From: a bacterium SCSIO 12741
GTDB lineage: Bacteria; Bacteroidota; Bacteroidia; Flavobacteriales_G; Salibacteraceae
DNA: 64,000 nucleotides
Assembly: GCA_024398055.1 (NCBI GenBank)
Contig: CP073749.1
Location: forward strand, 310,001-374,000
Direction: 5' to 3'
The translations under genes were made by a program, and so were the position numbers. The stretch's first letter is position 1. The number at the start of each line of letters is the position of its first letter. Shown here piece by piece: positions 28,723 to 57,847 of this stretch. The notes under the pieces are model-generated. The model was not told the DNA's origin, searched no databases, and saw only the letters and a program-made list of their open reading frames with translations.

Positions 28723-28737
28723 GTGGAGTCGGCGGGA
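28723..28737. other. Candidate attL core (copy of the ssrA 3' end)
   Basis: GTGGAGTCGGCGGGA is identical to 57749-57763, which covers the last 14 nt of ssrA. The flanks differ on both sides, as expected for the two ends of an integrated element. An exact 15-mer match is unlikely by chance in 64 kb, but part of the neighbourhood is also alignable with the repeat copy at 19.6 kb. Confidence 0.6.
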
Positions 28738-28980
28738 CTGTTGTCGAACCCTGAGATGGTGGAATTGGAAGAGGTATTTGGTTTGTTTTCAGAGGAGTAG
28801 ATCAAGCTACTACAGCAACCCATTTTCTGAAAAATGGTTATTTTAGGCTTGAACTAAACTGTGGAAGTGTGCATCTCAGCACAAATCACAAAGCACTTTT
28901 TTAAAAGTACAATCGCGATTGGTTCCAATGGAAAAAATAGAGACATGTCTTTATACAATCGTTAGCTTCAATAACTAATA

Positions 28981-29769
28981 ATGCTGTCTGAAGAAGAAAA
29001 ACATAAAATCATCCTAGAAGAGCGACTGCGATTTGAAACAAAGGAAGAGCTACAGAATCAATCTAAAAAACAAAATCGGGCGATTGCATTTTTCAATACA
29101 AACCTTGGTCTTTTTTTGTTATCTACAATTTTGGTTGGTGGAATCAGCTTTTCATACAACTATTTTAGGGAAAAGGAAATTAAACGAATAGAGCAATTAG
29201 ATCTCGAGAGGCAGCGATTATTCACAAAAAATAAACTTTTAGATGAGGTCGTTCATAGATTTAAAATATTGCAACTTGCGACTGATACACTAGTTGAATA
29301 TAGAAGTAAGGATATATACCTTGCATTGAAAGGCAATTCTGTAGAGAGCCCGCTAAAAGCTGAATACTATAATTTCAAATCTGTTTATGGTGAATACGCA
29401 GCGTGGAGTATTCAAAGGTTACTTCGAGAATTATCACTGGTTGAAGAAAATCCAGAGAACCTAGAACAAATTAAAGACTTACTATACTCGTTCTCGGAGA
29501 ATACGGAGTCACTAAATCATCTAAGTGAAAATTTCTATCTAGTTACTAATAAGGGGAGATACCTTCCAAAGGGAACCCAAATTAAAGTGTACAAGGGAAA
29601 AGACATGAAATATAGAGGACGATCGTACTACCTCAAAGATGAAAAGTATTACTACTTAGATAGAGGTGAAAAAATAAGCAGAAAATTCTTCAAGCTTGAT
29701 CAAAATGAGAAAATCAATAAATTGGTTGAATTGATTAGAAAATACTTAACTGAAGCTAACATGGTGTAA
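28981..29769 (+). CDS. Hypothetical membrane-anchored protein
   Basis: The 262-residue product starts with a charged N-terminus (MLSEEEKHKIILEERL) and one transmembrane helix (LGLFLLSTILVGGISFSYNY, about residues 42-61). A helical, probably coiled-coil domain and a basic C-terminal part (GKDMKYRGRSYYLKDEKYYY) follow. No known family recognised. It would be the first gene inside the candidate ssrA island. It ends 55 bp before the Mrr-like nuclease, with a perfect hairpin (29763-29795) between them. Confidence 0.6.
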   Translation: MLSEEEKHKIILEERLRFETKEELQNQSKKQNRAIAFFNTNLGLFLLSTILVGGISFSYNYFREKEIKRIEQLDLERQRLFTKNKLLDEVVHRFKILQLATDTLVEYRSKDIYLALKGNSVESPLKAEYYNFKSVYGEYAAWSIQRLLRELSLVEENPENLEQIKDLLYSFSENTESLNHLSENFYLVTNKGRYLPKGTQIKVYKGKDMKYRGRSYYLKDEKYYYLDRGEKISRKFFKLDQNEKINKLVELIRKYLTEANMV

Positions 29770-29813
29770 AAATGCATTGAAACGCATTTTACACAGAACG
29801 TTGGGCGCAATTG
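29763..29813 (+). repeat. Hairpin plus terminal cassette motif
   Basis: GTGTAAAAATGC and GCATTTTACAC form a near-perfect inverted repeat around ATTGAAAC. It is followed by AACGTTGGGCGCAATTGA, the same terminal motif as the long repeats. Here GTTGGGC fits the integron core GTTRRRY. It is a compact boundary just before the nuclease gene, which starts at ATG 29825. Confidence 0.55.
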
Positions 29814-29824
29814 AAACAAAGAAA

Positions 29825-30565
29825 ATGGGGATATACGAATTAGCAGAACAAATGAGACGCATGCAGTCACTTATGGTGCCGAGTTATGTGACCCAGCTGC
29901 AAGAGATATCTCAGAAGCTTCAAATGCGGGATCAAGGGATTGTTAGGGTCTTATCTGAATTTCAAAAGAACTACCAACCACTTCAACTGAACATTCCAAA
30001 ATTTGAAGTGCCTAATCCACCGACTTCCCAATTTGCTGAGATAGCCAAAAGGCTTCAGGCATCAATTCCTGATTTATCAGCTTTTGAGTATAATTTTGAT
30101 GACTTTCAAGAAGAGGAAATTGAAGAAGAGGAACTAATCCAAGTAGTAGACAACACAAAAAATCTGATTAAAAGCATATACGAAGACCATAACCTTTTGC
30201 AGGTAATTGAACCAAGAAAATTTGAAGAGATTATTGCTGAACTTCTTTATTCAAAGGGATTTGAAGTAAACCTAACGAAGCAAACGAAAGACGGAGGATA
30301 TGATATATTGGCGATTCAACAAATTGGAGGATTCCCAATCAAATTCCTTGTAGAGTGCAAAAGATATAAGAAAAACATAGGGATAGATATTATCAGAAGT
30401 TTCTGTGATGTAATTCGACACGAACAAGCTAACAAAGGAATAATCTTTACCACTTCTTATTTCTCCAAAGATTCTCAAAAAAGGAAAAGTGAGATGGGAA
30501 CGATTCTTGACCTACAAAATAGAGAAGATATAATTGATTGGATTATTGACTACCACAGAAGTTAG
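29825..30565 (+). CDS. Mrr-like restriction endonuclease domain protein
   Basis: ATG 29825 (MGIYELAEQMRRMQSL) follows the cassette boundary motif; an upstream ATG at 29777 lies inside the hairpin. The N-terminal ~120 residues are helical and acidic. The C-terminal ~120 residues form a PD-(D/E)xK fold of the Mrr_cat type: KFEEIIAELLYSKGFEVNLT, then GGYDILAIQ with the catalytic Asp, then FLVECKRYKK with the ExK pair, then IIFTTSYFSKDS. All catalytic residues are present. It probably cleaves modified or foreign DNA, although solitary Mrr-like proteins can have other roles. Confidence 0.82.
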   Translation: MGIYELAEQMRRMQSLMVPSYVTQLQEISQKLQMRDQGIVRVLSEFQKNYQPLQLNIPKFEVPNPPTSQFAEIAKRLQASIPDLSAFEYNFDDFQEEEIEEEELIQVVDNTKNLIKSIYEDHNLLQVIEPRKFEEIIAELLYSKGFEVNLTKQTKDGGYDILAIQQIGGFPIKFLVECKRYKKNIGIDIIRSFCDVIRHEQANKGIIFTTSYFSKDSQKRKSEMGTILDLQNREDIIDWIIDYHRS

Positions 30566-30577
30566 AAGTCGACCCCA

Positions 30578-30618
30578 CTCGGCGTAGTTTACAACTACTG
30601 ACCTTCTCCCCAAAAAAC
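30578..30618 (+). repeat. Truncated 5' end of the long repeat, cut near the IS
   Basis: CTCGGCGTAGTTTACAACTAC matches the 5' hairpin of the other copies, then the match breaks off 20 bp before the IS left end. The next cassette that should follow is absent. Confidence 0.55.
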
Positions 30619-30653
30619 TGTAGATACCCCAAAAAATAGGACAGTAAGTTTAA

Positions 30654-30947
30654 TTGATAAATTTACTGATTATGACCCGACGGAAGTTTACCTCTAAGTT
30701 CAAGACCAAAGTGGTTTTGGAAGCCTTAAAAGAACGAAGCAGTTTAGCAGAACTGGCTCAGAAATACGAATTACAACCCACCCAGATCAGCGCCTGGAAA
30801 CGAGAGTTTTTAGAAGGAGCTACCCAAGTGTTTGATTCTGGGAAATCAAGCAAGAAAAGCGAAGCCGAGCAGGAGAAGGATAAATTACTCAAGACCATCG
30901 GTAAGCTCAAAGTGGAAAACGATTTTTTAAAAGACGCCTTGCGCTAA
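30654..30947 (+). CDS. IS3-family transposase OrfA
   Basis: The 97-residue product is a HTH_Tnp_1 protein. RRKFTSKFKTKVVLEALKER and LAELAQKYELQPTQISAWKR form the DNA-binding helix-turn-helix, and a C-terminal leucine-zipper-like helix follows (EKDKLLKTIGKLKVENDFLK). OrfB is in a shifted frame starting just beyond, and an OrfAB fusion by programmed frameshifting is usual in this family. Confidence 0.93.
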   Translation: MINLLIMTRRKFTSKFKTKVVLEALKERSSLAELAQKYELQPTQISAWKREFLEGATQVFDSGKSSKKSEAEQEKDKLLKTIGKLKVENDFLKDALR

Positions 30948-30970
30948 GACCCTTAGCAGAACGCCGTGAT

Positions 30971-31720
30971 ATGATACGCAAGGGTCATTCTACTTTGAGC
31001 TTAGTCAAGCAGTGTAAAATGCTGGACATTCATCGCTCAGGACTGTATTACAAGCCCCAACCCGAAAGTGATTTCAATCTAAAACTGATGCGGGAAATAG
31101 ATGAACACTACCTTCACCATCCTTTCAAAGGAGCTAAACGCATGCACATCTGGCTTACCCGTGACAAAGGGTACCAGGTGAGCAAAAATCGGATAGAACG
31201 GCTTTATTACCGGGTTATGGGATTAAGAGCCATTATGCCGGGCAGACATACTTCCAGGCGATGCAAGTCTCATCCGGTATATCCCTACTTGCTCAGAAAC
31301 CTGACCATAGATCGACCGAACCAGGTATGGGCCACGGACATCACTTACATCCCCATGGAAAAGGGATATATGTATTTAGTGGCCATCATTGATCTATACA
31401 GCCGGTATGTGGTTAACTGGAGCATCTCCAATAGCATGGATGCAGCTTGGTGTAGAGCAACCCTTCAGGATGCTATTGAAATGCATGGAAAACCTGAGAT
31501 TATCAATACTGATCAGGGCAGTCAGTTTACCGCAGAGGAGTTCTCTTCTTTTGTACTCAAACAAGGAATAAGACTGAGCATGGATGGAAAAGGACGAGCA
31601 ACGGACAATGCTTTTATTGAAAGGCTTTGGAGAAATATCAAATACGAAAAACTCTATCTGAATCCTCCCACCGATGGACTGGATCTTTACCTGAAAACAG
31701 CAGAATACTTTAACTACTAA
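30971..31720 (+). CDS. IS3-family transposase OrfB with a premature stop near the C-terminus
   Basis: The 249-residue product has HTH_21 (IDEHYLHHPFKGAKRMHIWL) and an rve integrase core with all three acidic residues: Asp in WATDITYIPM, Asp in INTDQGSQF, Glu in ATDNAFIERLW. In place of the expected NYYNNERRHQALDY the frame has a TAA after FNY. It would continue NNERRHQALDYQIPIHRYEK and then AA if read through. The stop is present in both copies, so the shortened protein has probably remained transposition-competent. Confidence 0.9.
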   Translation: MIRKGHSTLSLVKQCKMLDIHRSGLYYKPQPESDFNLKLMREIDEHYLHHPFKGAKRMHIWLTRDKGYQVSKNRIERLYYRVMGLRAIMPGRHTSRRCKSHPVYPYLLRNLTIDRPNQVWATDITYIPMEKGYMYLVAIIDLYSRYVVNWSISNSMDAAWCRATLQDAIEMHGKPEIINTDQGSQFTAEEFSSFVLKQGIRLSMDGKGRATDNAFIERLWRNIKYEKLYLNPPTDGLDLYLKTAEYFNY

Positions 31721-31839
31721 AACAACGAAAGAAGGCATCAGGCTTTGGACTATCAAATACCTATTCACCGATATGAAAAAGCTGCCTAAAACAAACTTAA
31801 CTTTGACAAATAGCTGTCCTCATACTTGGGGTATCTACA

Positions 31840-32051
31840 CCAAGGGTATTTCCGTTTTTTAAGTGTCGATCTTTTTCTTTGGCTTCTTTTAAAATGTCTT
31901 CGTTTGAACGCAGATCAGAGATAGCATTTATGGTACCATTATGTTGTTCTATTTGCGCCAAAAAAGCTGATGCAACCTCTAAACAGCTCCATTCTCCAGT
32001 TTTTATATTTTCTAGAATTTGCTTTGCTGAGCTATAAATAATCTGTTTCAT
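31840..32051 (-). pseudogene. Amidase (GatA-like) gene truncated by IS copy 1
   Basis: About 70 N-terminal codons remain (KQILENIKTGEWSCLEVASA; INAISDLRSNEDILKEAKEK). This matches the amidase-signature family up to just before the usual PLHGIPxxxKD motif, where the IS end begins. The frame runs on a few codons into the IS to a stop at 31797. The Ser-Ser-Lys catalytic region is missing and not found on the far side of the IS. It overlaps the next hydrolase gene by 20 bp in the same direction, so it was the last gene of that operon. Confidence 0.8.
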
Positions 32052-33210
32052 TTTTGCTTTTTGTTTTTAGTTCCAGCCATGCTGTAATTGTGTTTATTGC
32101 TAGTGACATATTACCTACCATGCAATGGTCTTCTGCAGCATCTTTTTTTGTGAAAATATGGTCGGTAACTGATTGGGCATTTTTGAGTGCTTTAACCTGA
32201 AGGTGATGCATTTTTACAGGGATAAAATGATCTTTTGCACCACTCAGCAGAAGAACGTCTTGAGTTACTTTTTCCGAAGCAATGTTCTCTTTATTCATTT
32301 GAAGAATGATTTGAGAAGCATCCATGGGTGTTTTCGCTCCGGTTAAATGCATCAAGTTATTAATGGACCATCGTTCTTGTGGAATAAGCTTCATTTTTAT
32401 CCTTGCCATGTGGTTCATGAAGCCTTTGAATTTCATGAAGAACAGTAGTAGTTTTTTACCCCATTTTGGAAGAATTTCCAGGTAATCATATCCAACGCCC
32501 AATGCAATCACTTTGGTTATTCTTGGTTCAAAAGCTGCGGCACGAATCGCCCACCATCCGCCCATAGAGATTCCCATTAGCGATGCTTCTTCAAGGTTAA
32601 AATGGTCCAATACTGCTTTGGTTGGTTTTTCCCAATCAATAATCATCTTTAAACCATAATCTTTTAGTGGTTCTCCTTGGCCTGGTCCTTCAAAACAAAT
32701 AACTTCTATACCTCTCTTTGTGAAGGTTTGAGCTATTAAACAAAACTCTTCCATGAAAGAATCGAATCCTCCAAATATTAAGAGTGTTTCTGTTTTTTTA
32801 CCTTTTGCAGCATATCGCATAGCAGGAATAAAACCATTGTCATAAGGGATGTATTTACAGTCCTCCGAGTTAACAATACTCGACTGGTAAAAGAAATGCC
32901 TGAATTTTTGGTAAAGCTTGTATTTATCAGGATCATCCGGCATTGTAAAAAACTCTGCTCCACGGTAATACATTGCTGCTGCAAGTTTCTCACCGTGTTT
33001 AAGCTTATGGTCAGCCATTTCTATCATTTTAGGTTTCCAATCATCAATTCCCTTGATGTTTGCGCCTAATATTTTTATATCACTTAGCTCATAAAACCCA
33101 AGAGAATACCACCGATTTAATTGGTAATCGATGATTTTGATAGGGTGTACCTTGTGGTATCCTATTGGAAACAAATCATCTGCTTGATCTTTCATCATTG
33201 TGTCATTCAT
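32032..33210 (-). CDS. Alpha/beta hydrolase (FrsA/DHPON-hydrolase-like)
   Basis: The 392-residue product has an N-terminal helical cap (~120 residues), then an alpha/beta-hydrolase core. LLIFGGFDSFMEEFCLIAQT contains the oxyanion strand, EVICFEGPGQGEPLKDYGLK precedes the elbow, and ASLMGISMGGWWAIRAAA carries the nucleophile Ser in GxSxG. A late Asp (SGAKDHFIPVKMHHLQ) and His (AAEDHCMVGN) complete the triad. The EGPGQG motif is typical of the FrsA/2,6-dihydropseudooxynicotine hydrolase group. Substrate unknown. It overlaps the downstream amidase fragment by 20 bp and the upstream hydrolase by 4 bp. Confidence 0.85.
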   Translation of the reverse strand: MNDTMMKDQADDLFPIGYHKVHPIKIIDYQLNRWYSLGFYELSDIKILGANIKGIDDWKPKMIEMADHKLKHGEKLAAAMYYRGAEFFTMPDDPDKYKLYQKFRHFFYQSSIVNSEDCKYIPYDNGFIPAMRYAAKGKKTETLLIFGGFDSFMEEFCLIAQTFTKRGIEVICFEGPGQGEPLKDYGLKMIIDWEKPTKAVLDHFNLEEASLMGISMGGWWAIRAAAFEPRITKVIALGVGYDYLEILPKWGKKLLLFFMKFKGFMNHMARIKMKLIPQERWSINNLMHLTGAKTPMDASQIILQMNKENIASEKVTQDVLLLSGAKDHFIPVKMHHLQVKALKNAQSVTDHIFTKKDAAEDHCMVGNMSLAINTITAWLELKTKSKNETDYL

Positions 33211-34085
33211 TCTTGAATAAAATGTTGAATTTGTTGGATGCAGAAGTTCGTAGCCTCCCGATGCAAAAAATGGCCAGCTTCATTATGGTATCTTAGGTTA
33301 AAGCAATGTTCTGCTTCCATTTTTTTAAACTGATTAAGGTCAACAGTTCCATCTTTCTGCCCTATAAGAACCAATGTTGGTATAGTGGGAAGCTGTTGGT
33401 ATAGTGCTAACCTTTCTTTTTGTTTTCGTTCTTTGCCAAGTTGCCAGTAATAGCCAAGAGCTGCTTCTTTTCGCCACGGTTTTTCAAAACAATGAACCAT
33501 TTCCAATTTTAGCTGCTCGGCACTCAGTTTGGGACTCCACCTTTTGTATAGCGTATCGAGGTAGGCATAGTTGTTTTTAGATAATCGAGTTATGGATTTT
33601 GATCGATTCGCGAAGTATAAAATGTGCCGAGCCTTTAGCAAAAGCTTAAGAGAAGGTTTCAGAAATTTGGGGTGTGGCATATTGAGTGCAATTACTCTTT
33701 TAACATGCAATGGATATAGGTTTGCCATGATATAGGCAACGGTTGCCCCCCAGTCGTGGCCTACAACCGTATATTCTTTTAGGTCTAGCTTTAGTGCAAG
33801 TGCGTGAATGTCTTCAGCAATTCTTAATGCCGAATAATCGTGATCTTTAGGAATGTCAGTTGGATAGTATCCTCTTAAAAAAGGGGAGATGCAGGTGTTA
33901 GACTCAGCTAGTTCGGTAATTAAGTCATCCCATGCCCCGGCATGATCGGGAAATCCGTGTAGGAAAAAAATAGGATGGCCTTTTCCTTCTTGAAGGTAGG
34001 TATAGTTCAGTTTGCCCACCATGGTTTGTTTAATGTTGAATTTGCTTAGTTGAATGTTATCGTTTTGCATTTGTGTTGCTTCCAT
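33207..34085 (-). CDS. Alpha/beta hydrolase, epoxide-hydrolase/haloalkane-dehalogenase-like
   Basis: The 292-residue product has HPIFFLHGFPDHAGAWDDLI (HG oxyanion motif), then EYTVVGHDWGATVAYIMANL. There the nucleophile is Asp in GHDWG, as in epoxide hydrolases and haloalkane dehalogenases rather than Ser esterases. The acid follows TLVLIGQKDGTVDLNQ and the catalytic His is in NEAGHFLHREAT near the end. It is translationally coupled (4-bp ATGA overlap) to the next hydrolase, so an operon of three hydrolases with the truncated amidase is clear. Confidence 0.87.
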   Translation of the reverse strand: MEATQMQNDNIQLSKFNIKQTMVGKLNYTYLQEGKGHPIFFLHGFPDHAGAWDDLITELAESNTCISPFLRGYYPTDIPKDHDYSALRIAEDIHALALKLDLKEYTVVGHDWGATVAYIMANLYPLHVKRVIALNMPHPKFLKPSLKLLLKARHILYFANRSKSITRLSKNNYAYLDTLYKRWSPKLSAEQLKLEMVHCFEKPWRKEAALGYYWQLGKERKQKERLALYQQLPTIPTLVLIGQKDGTVDLNQFKKMEAEHCFNLRYHNEAGHFLHREATNFCIQQIQHFIQE

Positions 34086-34226
34086 TACAATCTTTTTAAC
34101 ATACCCTTTGCGGTGTTTTGATAAAGCAAAACTATGTTGGCTTTTAAGAGGAATCGTCCGGTTATGTATATCCGAACCTTTTTAGAAAATAATACAGGAA
34201 GTGTTTCGGGAGGAGTTTGGCTACAA

Positions 34227-36008
34227 CTAAGAAATACTGTTTTTATAAGCTTTTGGAGTCATGCCGGTAAGCTGTTTGAATGCTGTGTTAAAGGATGATT
34301 TTGAGTTGAAGCCGCATTCCAGCGCCAAGCCCAAAATAGAAAGGTGGCTGTACTTCGCATCGGCAATTCTTTCCTTGAACAGTTCAATGCGGTATCCGTT
34401 TATAAACTCATTGAAGTTTTTACCAAATTCTTCATTAATCAATGCAGAGAGTTTATTGCAGTGTATGTCCATGGCTGTAGCCATTTTCCGTATGTCTATT
34501 CCTGCATCCAAATAGGGGTGTTCCTTTTCGAAGAATTGAATAACTCTCTTAACTTCTTCGGTAGACCATGTTTTTTTTGTGGTTATATGAACTTCTGTCT
34601 CATTTACTTCTAATCCACTCCAGCGAATTTTGATCAATTGAGATTTTATTTCAATGAAGTCGGCATTTTGAGTAATTGGGCTAATCAAAGGATCAACAAT
34701 GAGAAATAGGAGTAACGGAATTTTTTGATCAAAGGCAAGTCTTAGCCATTTCACAGCCTTTTCGTGATCATTATCAAATGCGTAAATCAAAAATTGAAAC
34801 GCGATGGATCGATCGGTTGTTATTTGAGAAAGTTTGTCTTTGCAGGCGTCTAACTTTTCTAATTGCTCCAGTTTTGCATAACATAATCCCAAAACACCAA
34901 AGTATGCAGCTGCATCGTTGCAAGTGTCCATCTTAGTGGTGAAAAATTCTATTACGGCTTCTGTGTCACCGCTCATAATTTGAGCACAACTTTTGATAAC
35001 GATAGCAGGCATTAATTTAGGGCTGTAGCTTAGTGCCTGGTTACAATATTTAGCTGCTAACTCATAATCATGATCCAGATAAGCGATCCAACCTTTTGTA
35101 AACAGTTTGTTTGGTGAAAGTGGATCTAATTGTAAGGCAATGTTAATGTGTTTGTTGGCCTGAAGACTTTTCCCAATTAAGATGTAGATTAGAGAAAGTA
35201 CTGTATGAGATTCTGAGTGGCTAGGATTGGACTCTAACACTTTGTTAAGCTCAACAAAGGCATTTTTTAATTGCCAGTCTTGCCAAAAATAGTTGCTACC
35301 TAATGTAAATCCAAGGTCTGAAGAGTTAGGAGCGATGACTTTCGCTTTATCGCAGTAATGATTTACTTTTTGGAAGGCATCGAAAGGGTTGATGTATCCT
35401 GTGCCTGCCAAAAAAACATAACTGTTGGCTAAGCCAATGAGAGGAGCAGCATAATTTTCTTCATACGATAGTGCTTTATTAAAGCAATCAATGGCTTTGT
35501 TTACATCACTCTCATTCCACTTTTTATAATGGTATTGTCCTTTTAAGTAATGCAAATAAGCATCCACCGAAACGTTCTGCTTTCTTAGATTAAACCCAGA
35601 AAAATCGAAGTGCCAAAAATTCTCACGAAGTTTTTCAGCTATCTCGGTACTTATTTCCTCTTCTAAGTCTATAATATTATTAAAATCATCTTTCCAAGAT
35701 TGAGACCAAAGTACATGGTCATTGATTGGATCTATAAGGTTGGTTAATACTTTTATTTTTTTGTCAATAATAGTAACAGAGCCTTCTACTACAACATGAG
35801 CTTGAAGTGATTCGGAAATTTCTTTTAAACTTAGAGGCGAGTTTTTAAACCTGAAACTAGAAGTGCTTGAAGTCAATCTTAATCCATCAATTATTGATAG
35901 CTTATTGATGATGAACTCTGAAAGTCCATCTCCTAAATATTCTAAATCTGTTTTATTGCTAAAAACCTTGAAAGGAAGAACAGCTATATGAATGTTTGAT
36001 TTATTCAA
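34227..36008 (-). CDS. AraC-type regulator with TolB-like and TPR domains
   Basis: The 593-residue product starts with a TolB-like/FlgO-like domain (IAVLPFKVFSNKTDLEYLGD, ADVVVEGSV-like AHVVVEGSVTIIDKK, residues ~5-125). About six TPR units (SYEENYAAPLIGLANSYVFL and others, ~150-420) follow. At the C-terminus is an AraC helix-turn-helix (LGLALECGFNSKSSFNTAFK, ending KQLTGMTPKAYKNS). There is no signal peptide, so it acts in the cytoplasm. It is upstream of and codirectional with the hydrolase operon (141 bp apart), which it plausibly controls. Confidence 0.85.
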   Translation of the reverse strand: MNKSNIHIAVLPFKVFSNKTDLEYLGDGLSEFIINKLSIIDGLRLTSSTSSFRFKNSPLSLKEISESLQAHVVVEGSVTIIDKKIKVLTNLIDPINDHVLWSQSWKDDFNNIIDLEEEISTEIAEKLRENFWHFDFSGFNLRKQNVSVDAYLHYLKGQYHYKKWNESDVNKAIDCFNKALSYEENYAAPLIGLANSYVFLAGTGYINPFDAFQKVNHYCDKAKVIAPNSSDLGFTLGSNYFWQDWQLKNAFVELNKVLESNPSHSESHTVLSLIYILIGKSLQANKHINIALQLDPLSPNKLFTKGWIAYLDHDYELAAKYCNQALSYSPKLMPAIVIKSCAQIMSGDTEAVIEFFTTKMDTCNDAAAYFGVLGLCYAKLEQLEKLDACKDKLSQITTDRSIAFQFLIYAFDNDHEKAVKWLRLAFDQKIPLLLFLIVDPLISPITQNADFIEIKSQLIKIRWSGLEVNETEVHITTKKTWSTEEVKRVIQFFEKEHPYLDAGIDIRKMATAMDIHCNKLSALINEEFGKNFNEFINGYRIELFKERIADAKYSHLSILGLALECGFNSKSSFNTAFKQLTGMTPKAYKNSIS

Positions 36009-36187: not shown

Positions 36188-36194
36188 TCGGCTT

Positions 36195-36740
36195 TTATTT
36201 TTTGTTTTGTTTCCAAGATTTTTCCATTAGATCAAATCCGTAATTCCAACCTTTTTCAGTATCCGAAATAGTTCCTTCAGGAAGCTTTCGTAACTCTTCG
36301 CTAATACCTTCACCTACTTGAATAAATATTAACTGAGAACCTCGTTTCCCATCAGGTTTAATTTCTACAGTTATTGTATCTACGACAGGTGAAAAGTCAG
36401 GCATTGCACAGGTGTATTTGAGTTTATTAGGTTGTTCAACTTCCAAATATTTCCCTGTCATAACAAAAGTATCTTTTCCTTCCGTTCTCGTTATGGTGTA
36501 CTGTCCGCCTACTCGCAAGTCAATATCGAATTTGGTGTCTGATGTCCACCAAACAATCATATCATTGGGTTTTGTAAATGCCGCAAATACCTTATCAGGT
36601 AACACTTCAAATTGTCTAACGATTTTTATCTGTTTCATTTCTGTATTCTGATTTTGTTGTTTGCTCGATTTGTCGGTCATGTTATTACAAGCCGATAATG
36701 TCAAAAGCATTAATGTTAAAAGTCCAAATACTTGTTTCAT
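36195..36740 (-). CDS. SRPBCC (AHSA1-like) lipoprotein
   Basis: The 181-residue product has a lipoprotein signal (GLLTLMLLTLSAC, Cys about 18). An AHSA1/SRPBCC domain follows: VRQFEVLPDKVFAAFTKPND, WWTSDTKFDIDLRVGGQYTI, and the C-terminal helix EKGWNYGFDLMEKSW. SRPBCC proteins bind hydrophobic ligands in a deep cavity, and a lipid-anchored version is uncommon. It lies as a single gene between two attC-like palindromes. Confidence 0.82.
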   Translation of the reverse strand: MKQVFGLLTLMLLTLSACNNMTDKSSKQQNQNTEMKQIKIVRQFEVLPDKVFAAFTKPNDMIVWWTSDTKFDIDLRVGGQYTITRTEGKDTFVMTGKYLEVEQPNKLKYTCAMPDFSPVVDTITVEIKPDGKRGSQLIFIQVGEGISEELRKLPEGTISDTEKGWNYGFDLMEKSWKQNKK

Positions 36741-36765
36741 CTATTTGCAGTTAGGTTTTAGCTGC

Positions 36766-36902
36766 CGCACAACGGTCCCGGCTATGAGTAGTTGCGTGGG
36801 TTAGCGATTAACTTTGCAAGTACACACCAAACTGAAAATCCTCGCGGATTTTCAGAAGTAGGCGAGAAAAAGCAATTACTTATAGCCATTGTTGTGGTGT
36901 CG
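36766..36902 (-). repeat. attC-like palindromic intergenic element 2
   Basis: GCACAACGGTCCCGGCTATG then AGTAGTTGCG (from 36768) pairs with GCAATTACTTATAGCCATTG then TTGTG (to 36897). An inner hairpin, GAAAATCC TCGCG GGATTTTC, lies in the centre. Arm sequences are shared with element 1 (GGCTATG-GTAGT and TATAGCCATTGTTGTG), while the centres differ. Confidence 0.7.
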
Positions 36903-36908
36903 TTTTTT

Positions 36909-37319
36909 TTATTCCGATTCAACGTATTTTTTAAAATTCCCAAGTATAGCTTGCCATCCTGCACGTTGCTGTTCGTCAGAGTTTGTTCCCTCTGCATCAA
37001 ATGTTTCGCTGACTTGAATTTCATTTCCGTTTTGAGTGAATTCAATGTCAACCTTTCGTCCGTCCGACATTTTGTAAGAAATCAATTCTTTGTCAACAAT
37101 TTTCTCGTAAGTTCCCTCAAAGTCAAATCCAATACTTCCATCTTTAGCTTCCATTCGCCAAGAAAATGTTCCATTCGGTTTTAGGTCATTTTCTGCACTT
37201 GGGCAAGTCCATTCATCAGTCGCAAAATTCCAATTCGTTATATGTTTTGGTTCAGTCCAATAATTCCAAACTTTGTCAATTTCCGCTTGAACAGAAGTTT
37301 TTACAGTTATTCTATCCAT
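36909..37319 (-). CDS. SRPBCC (AHSA1-like) domain protein
   Basis: The 136-residue product is a single SRPBCC domain: ITVKTSVQAEIDKVWNYWTE, HITNWNFATDEWTCPSAEND, and a closing helix RAGWQAILGNFKKYVES. It has no signal peptide, so it is cytoplasmic. It is the second SRPBCC gene in a row, separated from the lipoprotein version by an attC-like palindrome. The two proteins are not close copies. Confidence 0.85.
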   Translation of the reverse strand: MDRITVKTSVQAEIDKVWNYWTEPKHITNWNFATDEWTCPSAENDLKPNGTFSWRMEAKDGSIGFDFEGTYEKIVDKELISYKMSDGRKVDIEFTQNGNEIQVSETFDAEGTNSDEQQRAGWQAILGNFKKYVESE

Positions 37320-37377: not shown

Positions 37378-37496
37378 TGTAGATACCCCAAGTATGAGGA
37401 CAGCTATTTGTCAAAGTTAAGTTTGTTTTAGGCAGCTTTTTCATATCGGTGAATAGGTATTTGATAGTCCAAAGCCTGATGCCTTCTTTCGTTGTT

Positions 37497-38246
37497 TTAG
37501 TAGTTAAAGTATTCTGCTGTTTTCAGGTAAAGATCCAGTCCATCGGTGGGAGGATTCAGATAGAGTTTTTCGTATTTGATATTTCTCCAAAGCCTTTCAA
37601 TAAAAGCATTGTCCGTTGCTCGTCCTTTTCCATCCATGCTCAGTCTTATTCCTTGTTTGAGTACAAAAGAAGAGAACTCCTCTGCGGTAAACTGACTGCC
37701 CTGATCAGTATTGATAATCTCAGGTTTTCCATGCATTTCAATAGCATCCTGAAGGGTTGCTCTACACCAAGCTGCATCCATGCTATTGGAGATGCTCCAG
37801 TTAACCACATACCGGCTGTATAGATCAATGATGGCCACTAAATACATATATCCCTTTTCCATGGGGATGTAAGTGATGTCCGTGGCCCATACCTGGTTCG
37901 GTCGATCTATGGTCAGGTTTCTGAGCAAGTAGGGATATACCGGATGAGACTTGCATCGCCTGGAAGTATGTCTGCCCGGCATAATGGCTCTTAATCCCAT
38001 AACCCGGTAATAAAGCCGTTCTATCCGATTTTTGCTCACCTGGTACCCTTTGTCACGGGTAAGCCAGATGTGCATGCGTTTAGCTCCTTTGAAAGGATGG
38101 TGAAGGTAGTGTTCATCTATTTCCCGCATCAGTTTTAGATTGAAATCACTTTCGGGTTGGGGCTTGTAATACAGTCCTGAGCGATGAATGTCCAGCATTT
38201 TACACTGCTTGACTAAGCTCAAAGTAGAATGACCCTTGCGTATCAT
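37497..38246 (-). CDS. IS3-family transposase OrfB (copy 2, same premature stop)
   Basis: The protein sequence is identical to copy 1, including the intact catalytic Asp-Asp-Glu residues and the TAA after EYFNY. The shared stop shows that it predates the duplication of the element. Confidence 0.9.
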   Translation of the reverse strand: MIRKGHSTLSLVKQCKMLDIHRSGLYYKPQPESDFNLKLMREIDEHYLHHPFKGAKRMHIWLTRDKGYQVSKNRIERLYYRVMGLRAIMPGRHTSRRCKSHPVYPYLLRNLTIDRPNQVWATDITYIPMEKGYMYLVAIIDLYSRYVVNWSISNSMDAAWCRATLQDAIEMHGKPEIINTDQGSQFTAEEFSSFVLKQGIRLSMDGKGRATDNAFIERLWRNIKYEKLYLNPPTDGLDLYLKTAEYFNY

Positions 38247-38269
38247 ATCACGGCGTTCTGCTAAGGGTC

Positions 38270-38563
38270 TTAGCGCAAGGCGTCTTTTAAAAAATCGTTT
38301 TCCACTTTGAGCTTACCGATGGTCTTGAGTAATTTATCCTTCTCCTGCTCGGCTTCGCTTTTCTTGCTTGATTTCCCAGAATCAAACACTTGGGTAGCTC
38401 CTTCTAAAAACTCTCGTTTCCAGGCGCTGATCTGGGTGGGTTGTAATTCGTATTTCTGAGCCAGTTCTGCTAAACTGCTTCGTTCTTTTAAGGCTTCCAA
38501 AACCACTTTGGTCTTGAACTTAGAGGTAAACTTCCGTCGGGTCATAATCAGTAAATTTATCAA
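38270..38563 (-). CDS. IS3-family transposase OrfA (copy 2)
   Basis: The 97-residue protein is identical to copy 1, with helix-turn-helix LAELAQKYELQPTQISAWKR and a C-terminal zipper-like helix. It lies just upstream of OrfB in a different frame. Confidence 0.92.
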   Translation of the reverse strand: MINLLIMTRRKFTSKFKTKVVLEALKERSSLAELAQKYELQPTQISAWKREFLEGATQVFDSGKSSKKSEAEQEKDKLLKTIGKLKVENDFLKDALR

Positions 38564-38598
38564 TTAAACTTACTGTCCTATTTTTTGGGGTATCTACA

Positions 38599-38994
38599 GG
38601 GCAAATAATAATTTGGATTAAGCTCTAAACACCTGGAATAATCCGAAACAGCTCCTTCCAAATCATCCAAATCGAATTTTGCTTTTGCTCGACTATTTAG
38701 ATATACCGTATCCTCTAAAATTTGAATTGCCCTATCATAATCTGAAAGTGCTTCTTTTGTCCTTCCCATCGCCTTTTTCGCTAAAGCTCTTCCATTATAG
38801 GACTCATGACTTTTTTCATCCAGCTCCAAGGCCACAGAAAAAGTAAGAATAGCCTTTTCATACTCTTCAGAGTTATATTGAGAGAACCCCAATTCATTCA
38901 ACTGCCTGACTTCAGTTTTATTCGAACAAGAAATCAGAAGTATTTGAACGATACCTATGAATAAGAGTTTAGTCATCCATGTCAAATTCAACAT
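38599..38994 (-). pseudogene. TPR lipoprotein gene, 3' end truncated by IS copy 2
   Basis: The start at ATG 38994 is supported by an AGGGGAG ribosome-binding site and puts a lipoprotein signal (LLFIGIVQILLISC) at the N-terminus; longer frames start at 39108. Three TPR-like units follow (QLNELGFSQYNSEEYEKAIL, GRALAKKAMGRTKEALSDYD). The coding sequence enters the IS after NPNYYLPC and stops four codons later (RYPKK, stop at 38578). The missing remainder is not found beyond the IS. It lies downstream of the Rhs locus in the same direction and may belong to that operon. Confidence 0.75.
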
Positions 38995-48286: not shown

Positions 48287-49977
48287 TTAACCGATCGCGA
48301 AAAAGTCGAAAATATCGGTTGGTTGTGTTTTTCCTCTTCGTAGGTCTTTAACTGGTAATCCAAAGGCGGAAAAGAACCGCTTAAGGCTACATCGGAATTG
48401 GTATTTCCACCAGAGTTTACCGATATATCCAGGTTCAAAAATCCCGAGGGGTTCGTACCGCCCTGTTTGTTGCTAACCACCGTTCTTAACTCGTATAAGT
48501 CTCCAGGAATTCGGGTGTCCTTGTTTCCATTTCCAGCCGCCACATATCCACTCAAATAGCCATGATCAAAAACCAAATTATTGCTTCCAGAAACGTTCTC
48601 TTTTACATAAATATCTCCATGGCTGTTATGATTGATGTAATAAGGATTGGAGGTGGAAGAAAATGAGGAAACACTACTCAAATTGTTCTGGACATTGTCG
48701 TGCATTCCGTGCAAAACACGGTCCCAGCTTCCGAAATTTACACCCGAAGAACTTACCCCAGGCTTTACAGGGTCATAAACGGAAGATCCATCCCCATATT
48801 CGCCGGCATAGTACACCGATTCGTAGTTGTACATAGAATCCTTTCTAAATACATCACTATCCTTGTGATCCATGTAATAAGGATTGGCCACACTGCCTCC
48901 AAAAGTGGAATAGTCCAGTTCCAACCATTCTTCGTTGCCGTAGAAATTGCGGGCTACTACTTTGGTTAGCAGCACATCTTTATAAACCGTCAAATCTGGA
49001 AGTTCCATGGCAATGTCTTTATTCCCAGATCCCAAGTCAATAAAGTGCAACCGGGTACGCATCGCTTCATCAAAGTACTGTTGGTTTTCGTTTTGGTATT
49101 CGGCAAAATAGTTGAAGCCTCCGAAATCTTCGTACTCGAATCCAATAGCTGGTGTTGAAGGTTTTGACGGATCTTCAATACTTGTACAGTACCATTTCAG
49201 ATACTCGCTCTTCGGATCAATCTCGGCCTTTAATTTTTCTCGTACCGTAGAATTTTCCGGATCATTGACCAGGGTGGTATTTGTATTTTCAAATACTCTT
49301 CTGTGATTGGCTTGTCGGTATGTCTTTATCGCCTTTCTAAAGTGATACTCTACCCCATTATCCAATCTTAAATGCCAACTACTTCCAGCCAACCAAACTT
49401 CCACATAACGGTCAAATCCGTTCAAGACGAAAACATGCCGGTTGTCCGTAGCATCGTAGTATTTATAAACCGCTCGGCCACTGACCACGCCCGGCACAGA
49501 TACATAAGGAGCATACCAATAAACTTGACCATTGGCTGCACTGTGGGTCAGATTGTTCACAAACCCAGAGGAATTACATCCATTAACTCCGTTGTGGTAT
49601 TGATTCCAATCGTAATAGTTATTGTCTTCGTAAATCTCGCTACTCACCGAAATGGAAGGAATGTTTAAACTCCACCCCTCGCCGTAAGGGATACCACCTA
49701 ATATCCCAACATCATTTCCTCCGGTATAGGTCGAGGAATAATTCAGACTGAGGGTATAGGATAGTCCATTGGGATTGGAAACTGTTCCTAAATCGTGAGA
49801 AGAAGTATAGGTTCCGTTAAACAAGTTTACATCACCTCGATAAGCTCCGGCATCTATTTTGAATGGTTCGGCCTGTCGAGGTAGAGGTGCTCCGTTTTCT
49901 CCGGTTCCAATGAGTTGAGCCTGAGCAAAAGGAATTAGGGCCAATGAGGCGAAAAGCAAGACGATTTTGCGGTACAT
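48151..49977 (-). CDS. N-terminal part of giant Rhs protein with signal peptide
   Basis: The 608-residue frame begins with a signal peptide (IVLLFASLALIPFAQA) and continues PLPRQAEPFKIDAGAYRGDV, LFNGTYTSSHDLGTVSNPNG and LSYTLSLNYSSTYTGG. That is the usual beginning of secreted Bacteroidota Rhs proteins. The last ~35 residues after FSRSVK are out of frame; the correct continuation is VECPGNTDPANPNGLLVTSN in the next frame. The signal peptide implies export by Sec, unlike classical proteobacterial Rhs proteins, which use the type VI system. Confidence 0.85.
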   Translation of the reverse strand: MYRKIVLLFASLALIPFAQAQLIGTGENGAPLPRQAEPFKIDAGAYRGDVNLFNGTYTSSHDLGTVSNPNGLSYTLSLNYSSTYTGGNDVGILGGIPYGEGWSLNIPSISVSSEIYEDNNYYDWNQYHNGVNGCNSSGFVNNLTHSAANGQVYWYAPYVSVPGVVSGRAVYKYYDATDNRHVFVLNGFDRYVEVWLAGSSWHLRLDNGVEYHFRKAIKTYRQANHRRVFENTNTTLVNDPENSTVREKLKAEIDPKSEYLKWYCTSIEDPSKPSTPAIGFEYEDFGGFNYFAEYQNENQQYFDEAMRTRLHFIDLGSGNKDIAMELPDLTVYKDVLLTKVVARNFYGNEEWLELDYSTFGGSVANPYYMDHKDSDVFRKDSMYNYESVYYAGEYGDGSSVYDPVKPGVSSSGVNFGSWDRVLHGMHDNVQNNLSSVSSFSSTSNPYYINHNSHGDIYVKENVSGSNNLVFDHGYLSGYVAAGNGNKDTRIPGDLYELRTVVSNKQGGTNPSGFLNLDISVNSGGNTNSDVALSGSFPPLDYQLKTYEEEKHNQPIFSTFSRSVKWNARAIQIPQILMGYWSLPICFPCPCLIRITRGFTFRLVLPMVT

Positions 49978-50657: not shown

Positions 50658-51293
50658 TTAAGAGGCCGAATCAACAAAACCAAATTCATAAGCCGCCTGA
50701 ATCGCAGCGCCTCGACTTGTCACTCCCAAATTCTTATAAAGCAACTTAAGGTGATATTTAACGGTATTGACAGAGACATGTTGGATATCGGCCATTTCTG
50801 AATAAGTACAATCATCAAGGAGTAGTTTGAGTAATCTTAATTGATGTTCACTTAACTCCACATCCAGTCCTTTACTTTTAGCTGATTTAATCTGATAAAG
50901 AAATTTGGACGATTTCTTAGACGTTGGAAACGTCAAAACATGGTGAACTGAAGCTATTAATGATTTTATGGGTTCGCGCTTCTCAACGAAATCATTGAAC
51001 AGATCAAACTCCTTTAGTCGTTGTCGACTTTTACCAATACTTATGGCCGATATTCCAATTATTCGAATCTCTGAATTAAATGCTCTTGCAATAGCCGCAA
51101 ATTCATAGGCCGAAGCCTTTTTTAGTCGAACTTCTATTATTAGGACCTCGACGGATGTCCAATCAATTTTTCGAATAGCCTCAAGTGGGTCGGAGAAACA
51201 ACCAACCACTTCCATTTTTTCCTGCTGAGATAAGTGCAGGGATAGACCGTCCAAAAAAGATTGATGGTGGTCAATACAAACAAGGTGGATCAT
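50658..51293 (-). CDS. NarL/FixJ-type regulator with degenerate receiver
   Basis: The 211-residue product has a receiver-like domain followed by a LuxR/GerE helix-turn-helix (LSEHQLRLLKLLLDDCTYSE, ISVNTVKYHLKLL-like HVSVNTVKYHLKLLYKNLGV). The phosphoacceptor position in VEVLIIEVRL is Glu54 instead of Asp, and the acidic pair is CIDHH (one acid only). The conserved Lys of VEKREP is kept. Glu at this position often mimics phospho-Asp. The start overlaps the stop of the kinase-like gene by 4 bp, so the two are made together. Confidence 0.85.
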   Translation of the reverse strand: MIHLVCIDHHQSFLDGLSLHLSQQEKMEVVGCFSDPLEAIRKIDWTSVEVLIIEVRLKKASAYEFAAIARAFNSEIRIIGISAISIGKSRQRLKEFDLFNDFVEKREPIKSLIASVHHVLTFPTSKKSSKFLYQIKSAKSKGLDVELSEHQLRLLKLLLDDCTYSEMADIQHVSVNTVKYHLKLLYKNLGVTSRGAAIQAAYEFGFVDSAS

Positions 51294-52735
51294 GGAATAA
51301 CTGCATTTAATTTAGTCTTGTTTAAGGTTAATCGGCCACCATCAGGGATGGAGGTTTCTAATAATATCTTTAGAGGAGTCAAGGGCTTACCAACATCTGC
51401 TGTAATTATCGTTGATTGATCATCACGCTCCAAAGTGAGGTACAGTTCACCCTTTTTTACATAAGACAGCAGGTAATTTATCAAGTAATAGATACTTAAA
51501 TCATTCTTTCCTGCATAGGTTTCTTCAAGGTTCTTATACTCAATATTTATTCGGGTTCCATTCACTCTTTCATGGGCTTTGGCCAACCACTCAACAGTTA
51601 AACGTAATCCAGAATCTCTCATACTTGCCGGCGAAATGACATCCGCAATCATGGCGAGGCTATCCGTTGCATTTTGAAGCACCTCTTGAAAATCTGAATC
51701 TTCGGGATACCTGAAACGCAGGGACAGCAATTCATTCATGATCTCATCATAAATCAATCTCGAATTTTTTTGGTCACGCTTATTTGAGTTGGTCAATATT
51801 TGCCTCAAGGAATCTTGATCTCGTTTTCTCTTCTTAACGACAAATACTGTTGCCACCAAGCCGATTATAATCAACAGAAAAAAAGTAATGACGATAAGCC
51901 AAAACCTGTTATTTTGGCGCAAACCTTGAAGGATATTAGCCTCCCAATCTTGAGAAAGAATCACAGCCTTTTCGTTAGCAGAGAATCTGGAATTCTCAAT
52001 TCGATCTCTGTTTTTTTTGTACTCAGTCGCAATAGAATAGTCTCCTGAATTATGGTAGGCGACATAAAGATTATGGTATAAGTCAGCTAACAAAAGTGAA
52101 TCGCTCAGTTTTGTACCAAGCTTTTCGGCCTTGTGTAACCAGATTTTGGCATCTTGGTACCTCGTCTGTTGATTTCTCAGGTCGCCAATGCTATGGTTAC
52201 AAATAAATTGAAGGCGAACATTTTGTTTTGATTCAGCCCATCTTGTCGCCTTTCTAATCAAAGAATCAGCTTGATCAAAATCTCCTTTTTCGGTGGCAAG
52301 AGCAGTCAGATTTATATGAGATTTAATCAATTGGACGGTATCTTTCAAAACCTCAGCTTTCTCCCTGCATCTGAAAAACACTCGCTGGGCTGAATCCAAC
52401 CTCCCCATCTGGAGAAAATGGATTCCTAAATTATTCAAGGCTAAAACCTCAAGAGAATCAGCTCTTAATGTACATGCCTCTGAAATAGACTTTCTGTAAT
52501 ACTCATTCGCTTTCTTATTAAACCCTTGAATGGAATTTATGGTACCCAAGTTTCTATAGGCATTAATTCTTCCAACAGGGTCCTCACCAGATAAAACACT
52601 ATGACAAAGTCTTGAAGCCTTAACCAGATCTCCTGAATTGATATAAATGGTTATCGAATCCAAGTGGGCTCTTGAAGTCTTGCCGAATATCAATATTAGA
52701 AGACATATTGAGAGTATTTTAACTACTGCATTCAA
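51290..52735 (-). CDS. TPR histidine-kinase-like protein, probably catalytically dead
   Basis: The 481-residue product has a signal peptide (VVKILSICLLILIFGKTSRA), about six TPRs (residues ~25-260) and a transmembrane helix (FWLIVITFFLLIIIGLVATV). It ends in a kinase-like part in which the usual (L)HDxIG H-box reads RLIYDEIMNELLSLRF, with Tyr in place of the phosphorylated His (about residue 328). The C-terminal ATPase-like region has LSIYYLINYLLSYVKKGELY in the N-box position without the usual Asn/His. It also has only ADVGKPLT where DxGxG is expected. It probably signals to its coupled regulator without phosphotransfer. Confidence 0.78.
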   Translation of the reverse strand: MNAVVKILSICLLILIFGKTSRAHLDSITIYINSGDLVKASRLCHSVLSGEDPVGRINAYRNLGTINSIQGFNKKANEYYRKSISEACTLRADSLEVLALNNLGIHFLQMGRLDSAQRVFFRCREKAEVLKDTVQLIKSHINLTALATEKGDFDQADSLIRKATRWAESKQNVRLQFICNHSIGDLRNQQTRYQDAKIWLHKAEKLGTKLSDSLLLADLYHNLYVAYHNSGDYSIATEYKKNRDRIENSRFSANEKAVILSQDWEANILQGLRQNNRFWLIVITFFLLIIIGLVATVFVVKKRKRDQDSLRQILTNSNKRDQKNSRLIYDEIMNELLSLRFRYPEDSDFQEVLQNATDSLAMIADVISPASMRDSGLRLTVEWLAKAHERVNGTRINIEYKNLEETYAGKNDLSIYYLINYLLSYVKKGELYLTLERDDQSTIITADVGKPLTPLKILLETSIPDGGRLTLNKTKLNAVIP

Positions 52736-55455: not shown

Positions 55456-55869
55456 ATGAAACTAAGAGGATATATATTCGACGAAGAAGGCTTTATTCTA
55501 ACTCGATGTGTTTTGGTTTACTATACCAAAAAAGGAAAACTGAAAATGGCAGACCTCAGGTTTACAGCATTTTTTGAAATCAAAAATGTTGATCCCAATG
55601 AGCCCGTAAAAATTGAGTTTTTGGACGACTCTGGAAAAACCCATTCTAAAGAGTTTGACGCAAATGAACTTCCCTTTATTATGGGAATAGCAGCGTCAAA
55701 AAACCAGGAAATCGTTTTTAACTATGGTCTTGCCACGCATGAAAAAACGGACCAGCTTTTTTGGCTTTTGGATTTTATCAATTGGCTGAACTACAAATAT
55801 AACGAGCCGAATACCCAAGCATCCAGGGCCTTCCACATGGCTTTTACTCTCGGGCAGACCTTTGGTTAA
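55456..55869 (+). CDS. Hypothetical protein
   Basis: The 137-residue product has no signal peptide. The N-terminal part is strand-rich (MKLRGYIFDEEGFILTRCVL, FTAFFEIKNVDPNEPVKIEF) and the C-terminal part helical (LFWLLDFINWLNYKYNEP). It is 25 bp after the zinc-ribbon gene, so probably in one operon. No family recognised. Confidence 0.5.
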   Translation: MKLRGYIFDEEGFILTRCVLVYYTKKGKLKMADLRFTAFFEIKNVDPNEPVKIEFLDDSGKTHSKEFDANELPFIMGIAASKNQEIVFNYGLATHEKTDQLFWLLDFINWLNYKYNEPNTQASRAFHMAFTLGQTFG

Positions 55870-55953
55870 CCCGTCCGATTCACCCTCACCTGCTTGAATT
55901 AAGGTAGAAGTCAAAAGGCTTTCTGCGATTGTTGAACCCAAAATGATCAAACA

Positions 55954-56133
55954 ATGATTTCATTGAAACAATCTGAAAAAACCCTTAACTCGGGTAAGGA
56001 CAAATTCTCTCCCGATCAGGTAGCACAAATCCGGGATTTCTTTTATCAAATAGCCCGAATTCAGGTTCGTGCTTATTTGGACGACCATCGAAAGAAACAG
56101 ATGGGTAAAAAATCTTCCAAAAGAGCAGCTTAA
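55954..56133 (+). CDS. Small 59-residue protein upstream of the serine recombinase
   Basis: The frame runs from ATG 55954 to TAA 56133. It encodes a short helical, strongly basic protein: MISLKQSEKTLNSGKDKFSP, then DQVAQIRDFFYQIARIQVRA, ending KKQMGKKSSKRAA. It lies 94 bp before the recombinase in the same direction. Size, charge and place fit a DNA-binding accessory factor such as a recombination directionality factor, but there is no sequence-family evidence. Confidence 0.6.
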   Translation: MISLKQSEKTLNSGKDKFSPDQVAQIRDFFYQIARIQVRAYLDDHRKKQMGKKSSKRAA

Positions 56134-56227
56134 TCAATTTTCATTTTTGTTAACTTGAGTTTGGCCCGCTTGTTGCTTCTGCCTTCGGCAGAAACTTGCG
56201 GGCTAACTGGCTTATAACTTCTAAACT

Positions 56228-57847
56228 ATGCATACCAAAAGAGTCATTTTATATTCAAGGGTAAGTACCGATGATCAATCGAATTACAGTCTCCACGACC
56301 AAGTGATTCGGCTTAGAGAACATTGCGAAGCCAAAAACTACGAGATCGTTGCTGAATTCAGTGACGATGGATACTCAGCTAGATCCTTTAACCGTCCGGA
56401 ATTCCAAAAACTCAAAAAATTTGCCCAGGCGAATAAGCGGTCTATTGATCAGTTACTCTTTGTGAATTGGAGTCGGTTTAGTCGAAATGCGGCAGACGCT
56501 TACCAAATGATGCAGGAATTCGAAAAGTATGGAATAGAAATTCAATCAGTTGAGCAACCCATTGACTTCAGCATTCCAGAAAGCGCAATTACCCTTGGAG
56601 TTTATATTTCGATGCCGCAAGCCGAAAATGCCAGACGAGCGTTGAACATACGTAAAGGAATCAGGCGAGCAAGCCTCATGGGAAGAACCACTAAATTGGC
56701 ACCTTTCGGTTACAAAAATTCCCGAGATGAAAACAACAGACCCATCGTTATTCCCCATCCTGAAAAATCAAAACTGATTTCCAAGGCATTTGAGCTCGTT
56801 GGTTCCGGCTTGTACTCCATCGTTGAGGCGCATAGAATGATGCGTCAAAAAGGATTGGATAGAAGCATTAACCAATTCCACCGAATATTGAGGCACAACT
56901 ACTATTTAGGAAAAGTCAAAGTTCCTGCTTCAAAAAATGAACCGGAGTTTTGGGTAGAGGGAATACACGAACCACTAGTGTCGGAAGACCTTTTTTACAA
57001 AACCCAAAGAGTATTGAAAGGTCTAAAACCAATAGTGGTAAAAAACAACTCCGAAATTGAAGATTCATTGTATCTGCGTGGGCACCTTAAATGTGGATAT
57101 TGTGGTAGCAATCTTACCGGTTCAGGCTCACGAGGAAAACTGGGCAAAAAATACTATTACTACCACTGTCGCAATGGATGCAAAGAGAGATTTCGAGCCG
57201 ATCTTATTCACGAAGCAATCCAAAGGTATTTCGCCTCCATCAAGTTTTGCCCTGAATCTGTGGAATTGTATAAAAAAATCTTGAAGGATGTTTTTGAAAG
57301 CACCAAGGGAAATGCCAAAAGCAAGGCTAGGGTAATACGGAAAGAAATAAAAGAGCTTTCAGAAAAGAAACAAAGGCTCCAAGATATGCTCCTAAGTGGC
57401 AAACTCGAAATTGAGGATTACAGCGAAATGAAGCAGCGAATGGACTTGGAATGCTCCATGAAAAAACAAGAATTGAAAGGGATGGAAAATACCAATTCGG
57501 ATTTAACCCGTTTACTGAATTGGTCTGTCGGCTTTGTCCAAAACCTCGACAAATACTATGATTCCGCCTCTACTGAGTTAAAAAAGAAACTCATGGTTTC
57601 GATCCTTGCCAAACCGATTGTTTTTTTCAAAAATGAAGTTCGAACCCTTGAACTTATCGCCCCTCTCAAACACATCACCCAAGTAATCAATCAATTACAA
57701 GAATCAAAAAAGGGATCAAACGACACTGATGCCATTCAATCCCTAGTAGTGGAGTCGGCGGGATTCGAACCCGCGTCCAAACATGGAACAATCCAGCTTT
57801 CTACATGTTTATCCTACAATTGGTTTTCGATCCGGATCAGGCCATAG
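56228..57847 (+). CDS. Large serine recombinase (integrase) of the ssrA island
   Basis: The 539-residue product has a resolvase catalytic domain: VILYSRVSTDDQSNYSLHDQ with nucleophile Ser13 in RVS, then FVNWSRFSRNAADAYQMM with the active-site Arg residues. A recombinase domain follows (KLAPFGYKNSRDENNRPIVI, FHRILRHNYYLGKVKV), then a zinc ribbon (LKCGYCGSNLTG, HCRNGCKERF, about 288-325) and a coiled coil (about 355-425). The last 28 residues, after VVESAG, are encoded by the strand opposite ssrA, so the native C-terminus appears to be replaced on integration. It most likely catalyses integration into and excision from the ssrA 3' end. Confidence 0.92.
   Translation: MHTKRVILYSRVSTDDQSNYSLHDQVIRLREHCEAKNYEIVAEFSDDGYSARSFNRPEFQKLKKFAQANKRSIDQLLFVNWSRFSRNAADAYQMMQEFEKYGIEIQSVEQPIDFSIPESAITLGVYISMPQAENARRALNIRKGIRRASLMGRTTKLAPFGYKNSRDENNRPIVIPHPEKSKLISKAFELVGSGLYSIVEAHRMMRQKGLDRSINQFHRILRHNYYLGKVKVPASKNEPEFWVEGIHEPLVSEDLFYKTQRVLKGLKPIVVKNNSEIEDSLYLRGHLKCGYCGSNLTGSGSRGKLGKKYYYYHCRNGCKERFRADLIHEAIQRYFASIKFCPESVELYKKILKDVFESTKGNAKSKARVIRKEIKELSEKKQRLQDMLLSGKLEIEDYSEMKQRMDLECSMKKQELKGMENTNSDLTRLLNWSVGFVQNLDKYYDSASTELKKKLMVSILAKPIVFFKNEVRTLELIAPLKHITQVINQLQESKKGSNDTDAIQSLVVESAGFEPASKHGTIQLSTCLSYNWFSIRIRP
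57749..57763. other. Candidate attR core at the ssrA 3' end
   Basis: GTGGAGTCGGCGGGA is identical to 28723-28737. The left flank is recombinase coding sequence and the right flank is ssrA. Positions 57750-57763 form the acceptor stem and part of the T-arm of tmRNA, a usual integration target. Confidence 0.65.

Follow-up and report, generated by a model that had tools for sequence, protein, structure and literature searches.

The interval 28723-57763 of the 64,000-nt stretch of DNA analysed here (the window) is very probably an integrated mobile element, whose serine recombinase joined the attP situated in the 3′ end of the recombinase gene to an attB at the ssrA 3′ end. An island at this gene with a left boundary at 28723 had been proposed in the initial annotation, and the proposal is now strengthened by a left arm that holds the expected motif at attP register and carries a native recombinase tail in frame. 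The two cores, the motif geometry, the recombinase frame open across the virtual attP, the homology of the tail and the placement of the terminators can all be read from the DNA itself. Islands at tRNA and tmRNA genes are common in general, and this single island is ordinary in kind; the architecture of the family to which it belongs is more interesting. Feature coordinates are collected in Table 1.

Table 1. Features of the element, its ssrA target and the adjoining DNA (window positions).
Feature	Position	Strand	Remarks
Possible second decayed att module	18205..18290 (approximate ends)	+	Weak; tail-like KRDSLNSFAEELKELFTSF*
Decayed copy of attL module outside the island (older related insertion)	19622..19712	+	
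Terminator-like hairpin adjoining attL	28687..28717	-	-25.9 kcal/mol
attL core, exact 15-bp copy	28723..28737	+	
attP arm	28738..28800	+	TCGAACC at 28744-28750; predicted to encode native recombinase tail LLSNPEMVELEEVFGLFSEE*
Leader repeat at left end of element, before first cargo gene	28830..28963	+	
Cargo gene, no family match	28981..29769	+	
Mrr_cat restriction endonuclease-like protein	29777..30565	+	
IS3-family copy 1	30618..31839	+	100% identical inverted pair with copy 2
Two alpha/beta hydrolases	32032..34085	-	
AraC-type regulator with TPR repeats	34227..36008	-	
Two AHSA1-domain genes	36195..37319	-	
IS3-family copy 2	37378..38599	-	Together with copy 1 encloses 5.5 kb holding the hydrolases, the AraC-type regulator and both AHSA1-domain genes
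Rhs-type locus, several frames	39814..49977	-	
LuxR-type response regulator and TPR protein	50658..52735	-	
Large serine recombinase	56228..57847	+	539 aa in the integrated form; final ~34 codons run antisense to ssrA
Element-supplied ssrA terminator	57711..57744	-	-18.3 kcal/mol, U-tract; inside recombinase 3′ coding end
attR core GTGGAGTCGGCGGGA	57749..57763	+	T-loop (ZD) motif TCGAACC at 57765-57771
ssrA (tmRNA), integration target	57749..58139	-	Tag GENNYALAA

The ssrA target and the ends of the element

The ssrA gene was identified by both ARAGORN and Rfam, and the 15-bp core GTGGAGTCGGCGGGA lies at its 3′ end, with all 15 nucleotides inside the ARAGORN gene rather than the 14 counted initially. 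The earlier claim that this core recurs only once elsewhere holds for the whole 5,103,034-bp single-contig genome, where exact copies occur at 28723 and 57749 alone. These are also the only matches in the window when up to two mismatches are allowed (0.04 expected from shuffles), and the recomputed spacing between them agrees with the 29,026 bp first given. On the other side of ssrA lies a family-wide neighbour, the gene at 59443-60729, whose synteny is kept in at least 15 relatives. The island interior (28.7-57.7 kb) has no synteny near ssrA in relatives, the DNA left of 28.7 kb is absent from the nearest relatives, and none of the 52 genomes with an identical 30-nt attB carries a homologous recombinase beside ssrA in the DNA examined around attB. 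The downstream ssrA flank of relatives was considered as a guide to the original flank; it is not conserved and was uninformative.

Counted from the first base of the core, the motif TCGAACC, which is the T-loop read in antisense, stands at position 17 in ssrA (attB register) and at position 22 in the arm at 28.7 kb (attP register). In integrases of the LI/A118 type, the zinc-ribbon motif lies 5 bp nearer the centre in attB than in attP (PMC3783163); this shift of the ZD motif, known for serine integrases, is found here in the right half-site, the one that was examined. An offset of exactly +5 bp is present in the focal element and in three others (G226, G139 and G391), and the sites of all four rank first by core match and hairpin alone, with the motif left out of the ranking. 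When 19 elements were scanned for the motif at shifts from -4 to +14, requiring a partial core and a terminator, shift +5 returned 10 terminator-flanked sites in nine elements, and any other shift returned zero to two. One element (G346) has two +5 sites 15 kb apart, and the remaining 10 elements have none within the DNA examined. Among other arms, those of G084 match the motif at four of seven bases only, and one G396 site is a 14-nt core copy that lacks the motif, which is present at another site of that genome; the register of the uninterrupted attP sites of G071 and G148 was assigned by analogy. Searching for exact cores alone mostly failed in other elements until the +5 rule was used.

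A hairpin situated 5 nt to the left of the distal core confirms the strong terminator described beside that copy. Its proposed identity as the original ssrA flank does not necessarily follow, since family elements carry a terminator at their right end and the 18.2-28.7 kb region looks like older accreted units; the hairpin is either the former ssrA terminator or the right end of an older unit. The possibility that ssrA now lacks a terminator was ruled out, as one is supplied by the 3′ end of the recombinase gene. A terminator-like hairpin with a T-rich stretch occurs within 8 nt of the RNA 3′ end for all 46 recombinases with an identified tRNA or tmRNA target, nearly always inside the recombinase coding frame in its last codons, and none of 552 control windows from the same genes is as strong. 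Just left of attL, at 28425-28680, are also two tandem 120-nt copies, 90% identical, both containing a terminator-like hairpin together with a TTCGAAACC stretch.

Judged from sequence, the left core copy is the end of the element because the T-loop motif is at the +5 register, the recombinase frame is open across the virtual attP and a strong terminator lies directly beside the core. Most of the distal 15-bp copy belongs to the element itself, as an attP that mimics ssrA, and the copy is more than a displaced piece of that gene. Crossover probably occurred within the first ~5 bp of the attL core; the body of ssrA is kept, and the exchange affects only what lies beyond its last few bases.

The recombinase and its C-terminal tail

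As first reported, a large serine recombinase gene runs into the 3′ end of ssrA and closes in its antisense strand. The product has Resolvase, Recombinase and zinc-ribbon domains, all above Pfam cut-offs, and retains a YSRVSTDDQ motif; against the NCBIfam equivalog for CcrB it scores 100 bits, below the cut-off of 900, placing it outside the SCC cassette recombinases (CcrA/B/C). Homologous recombinases are found in many Bacteroidia, mostly at 32-42% identity, with a second group near 25%. A tRNA or tmRNA gene was identified beside the 3′ end of 46 of the 56 recombinases examined, six of these targets being tmRNA, and tmRNA specificity requires at least five changes on the tree. Phage, plasmid and viral collections, searched for the element in unintegrated form, yielded distant relatives only, together with one viral contig at 34% that ends in tRNA-like sequence. 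Two further cases were noted among the relatives. In G396, two closely related recombinases (L136 and L193) lie one at tmRNA and the other at tRNA-Arg, a recent target change, and the near-identical L135 (G191) and L194 (G296) part at their 3′ ends right after GGGTGGA, one running into tRNA-like sequence and the other into different DNA.

Across a virtual attP, made by fusing what lies left of the right-hand core to what lies right of the left-hand core, the recombinase frame is open for a further 20 codons and ends ...SLVVESAGLLSNPEMVELEEVFGLFSEE, with closing residues ...GLLSNPEMVELEEVFGLFSEE. An uninterrupted recombinase end of this kind occurs naturally in L111 (G071) and L139 (G148), neither of which is at a tRNA gene. 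Fourteen arms were compared, namely the focal one, nine from the shift scan, two from G084 and those of G071 and G148. In all 14, the frame starting TCG AAC (SN) or a variant is open for 14-35 codons, and the tails of the other 13 are homologous to the focal one (SNxFxxDLxxIxxL), with conservation in that frame only. Mean pairwise BLOSUM62 for the tails is +0.11 in frame versus -1.28 and -0.99 in the other frames, and the in-frame score was reached by none of 2000 codon shuffles. The twin tails of G084 differ mainly at synonymous sites (pS 0.41 versus pN 0.12, p=0.015). Since the tail is conserved in frame across arms, the arm appears to encode a part of the recombinase that exists in the circular form and is removed by integration; integration is therefore predicted to strip the enzyme of its native tail of ~20 residues.

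The tail swap may serve a function. One tentative and rather unlikely suggestion is that the C-terminal tail is a built-in state sensor, carrying SNxFxxDLxxIxxL in the circular form and antisense tRNA or tmRNA residues in the integrated form, and that the swap helps set the direction of the reaction (integration versus excision) or enables related elements in arrays to act on each other. The family in any case offers a testable example of a recombinase whose tail changes by its own reaction.

Proposed mechanism and known systems

In the mechanism that we propose, the zinc-ribbon domain would most likely read the conserved T-loop sequence TCGAACC, which would be met at attB distance in ssrA and 5 bp further out in the element. 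Strand exchange would take place inside the first few bases of the core, so that ssrA would stay whole. A replacement ssrA terminator would arrive with the element, within the last codons of the recombinase gene, and the native C-terminal tail of ~20 residues would be cut off and left at 28738-28800, its place taken by antisense-ssrA residues. A zinc ribbon that reads a sequence common to nearly all tRNA genes would suggest why these enzymes switch between them. The resulting sequence rule, a T-loop motif at 17 in attB and 22 in attP with a terminator on the recombinase side, locates both ends of tRNA- and tmRNA-targeting serine-recombinase elements in Bacteroidia, including ends that escape a repeat search since the shared core is in some cases no longer than 5-9 bp, and new integrases with predictable sites are on offer.

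Dehalococcoides is known to carry serine-recombinase islands at ssrA (PMC3146451). These DsiB islands resemble the focal element in having a serine recombinase at the ssrA 3′ end, a short direct repeat and a tandem arrangement of units, many of which lack a recombinase. DsiB itself is homologous to CcrB and has DsiA as its partner; a six-gene module accompanies it, the repeat is 20 bp long, and insertion was inferred to lie in the T-loop (PMC3146451). In the focal element, by contrast, exchange is at the acceptor end, attP is intragenic and the relatives span many tRNA genes, and the interval contains one recombinase with a low CcrB score in place of the DsiB/DsiA pair and six-gene module. The A118/LI-type large serine integrases share the domain order and a zinc-ribbon motif 5 bp further out in attP (PMC3783163), but in the present family that motif is supplied by the tRNA/tmRNA T-loop, and the recombinase gene contains attP. 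An attP inside the integrase gene and a product altered by integration are also found in the archaeal suicidal (SSV-type) integrases (PMC8371274), but those enzymes belong to the tyrosine recombinases, and their gene is inactivated by being split, whereas here only a short tail is exchanged and the recombinase is not divided into inactive halves. Islander tRNA/tmRNA islands likewise integrate at the 3′ end and leave a core copy at the far end, using tyrosine integrases rather than a serine recombinase (PMC4383910); according to that 2014 paper, no tRNA-targeting serine integrases were known (PMC4383910). A limited search of the open-access literature returned no description of an intragenic attP combined with the T-loop as zinc-ribbon motif, a terminator in the last recombinase codons and a conserved tail lost on integration, which is weak evidence of novelty.

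Cargo, mobility and the DNA beyond the left end

The cargo is as listed in the initial annotation, and its members were identified as an Mrr-type nuclease, IS copies, hydrolases, an Rhs locus, and a response regulator with a TPR protein. After the IS3 pair, the gene order is a TPR protein, the Rhs-type locus, the regulator pair, a gene with weak resemblance to sigma factors and, last, the recombinase. The inverted identical IS3 copies (1222 nt each, 30618-38599) around 5.5 kb resemble a composite transposon, and the 12 bases flanking them on the outside hold no obvious target duplication. Among the Pfam matches of the 20 larger ORFs there was no relaxase and no conjugation gene of the kind that an ICE or IME would have; transfer between cells would therefore need help.

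This content bears on whether the element is a once mobile and now fixed remnant, left with the wrong recombinase tail after integration and immobilised by IS and Rhs growth. The two IS3 copies inside, the lack of relaxase and conjugation genes among those Pfam matches and the damaged-looking Rhs frames fit such a history, for which the archaeal suicidal integrases, whose genes are damaged by integration (PMC8371274), provide a precedent. However, the catalytic, recombinase and zinc-ribbon domains are intact and the change is limited to the last ~20 residues, and we consider fixation a serious possibility that falls somewhat short of even chances. The recombinase is presumably active, and the element may still excise.

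A second alternative concerns the extent of the element. The initial annotation cautioned that the left boundary aligns with a repeat near 19.63 kb; the similarity is real and crosses the boundary, with 28704-28759 aligning to 19622-19674 (none of 1000 shuffles as good) and 28.70-28.98 kb forming a diverged copy of a local module also present at 19.62-19.89 kb, but the boundary stands on its core, motif register and tail. One larger element of ~38-39 kb, with a left boundary at ~18.2-19.6 kb and the 28.7-kb site as an internal att-like module, would accommodate the decayed att-type modules at 18.2 and 19.6 kb and the low G+C of 19.6-28.7 kb (0.378, versus 0.429 further left and 0.458 right of ssrA). 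Arrays of att modules are also known elsewhere, two each in G084 and G346; the G084 modules, 3.7 kb apart, bound a unit without a recombinase (L153, G084:C14, 3527-7268) that holds two secreted-type genes. The larger element is nevertheless improbable, as the exact core and exact motif occur at the 28723 copy only, the older copies are too decayed to have partnered this integration, and successive insertion at one site fits better than a single large insertion. With decayed att-module copies in 18.2-28.7 kb, the DNA past the left end probably includes earlier related insertions, and we read 18.2-28.7 kb as DNA accreted earlier and 28.7-57.8 kb as the unit in which the recombinase is retained.

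That the core at 28723 arose by chance or belongs to a repeat family, with the recombinase merely beside ssrA and no site-specific island, is suggested by the position of the boundary inside a local repeat module but is highly implausible given a core unique to two sites in 5.1 Mb, a motif at the exact attP register with a homologous tail in frame, and the same architecture at unrelated tRNA and tmRNA genes of other genomes.

The 18200-28700 region contains lone genes (a metallophosphatase, a DDAH-like protein, two secreted proteins with C-terminal sorting domains, SUKH and a putative AbiC) with diverged copies of one intergenic module between each, giving it a cassette-like look; an integron attC array was considered for this module and dropped, as no test supported it. 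A possible recombinase tail at the 3.484-Mb repeat copy was also rejected, its similarity being out of frame with TCGAAC. Twelve copies (up to two mismatches) of a 21-bp intergenic motif, TTTAGGNTNNAACTAAACTGT, fall in two clusters, the second with no tRNA inside. The motif often precedes a gene, with sites at 7956, 19741, 24921, 27073 and 28830 of the window and at 2.459-2.492 Mb, 3.484 Mb and 4.633 Mb of the genome.
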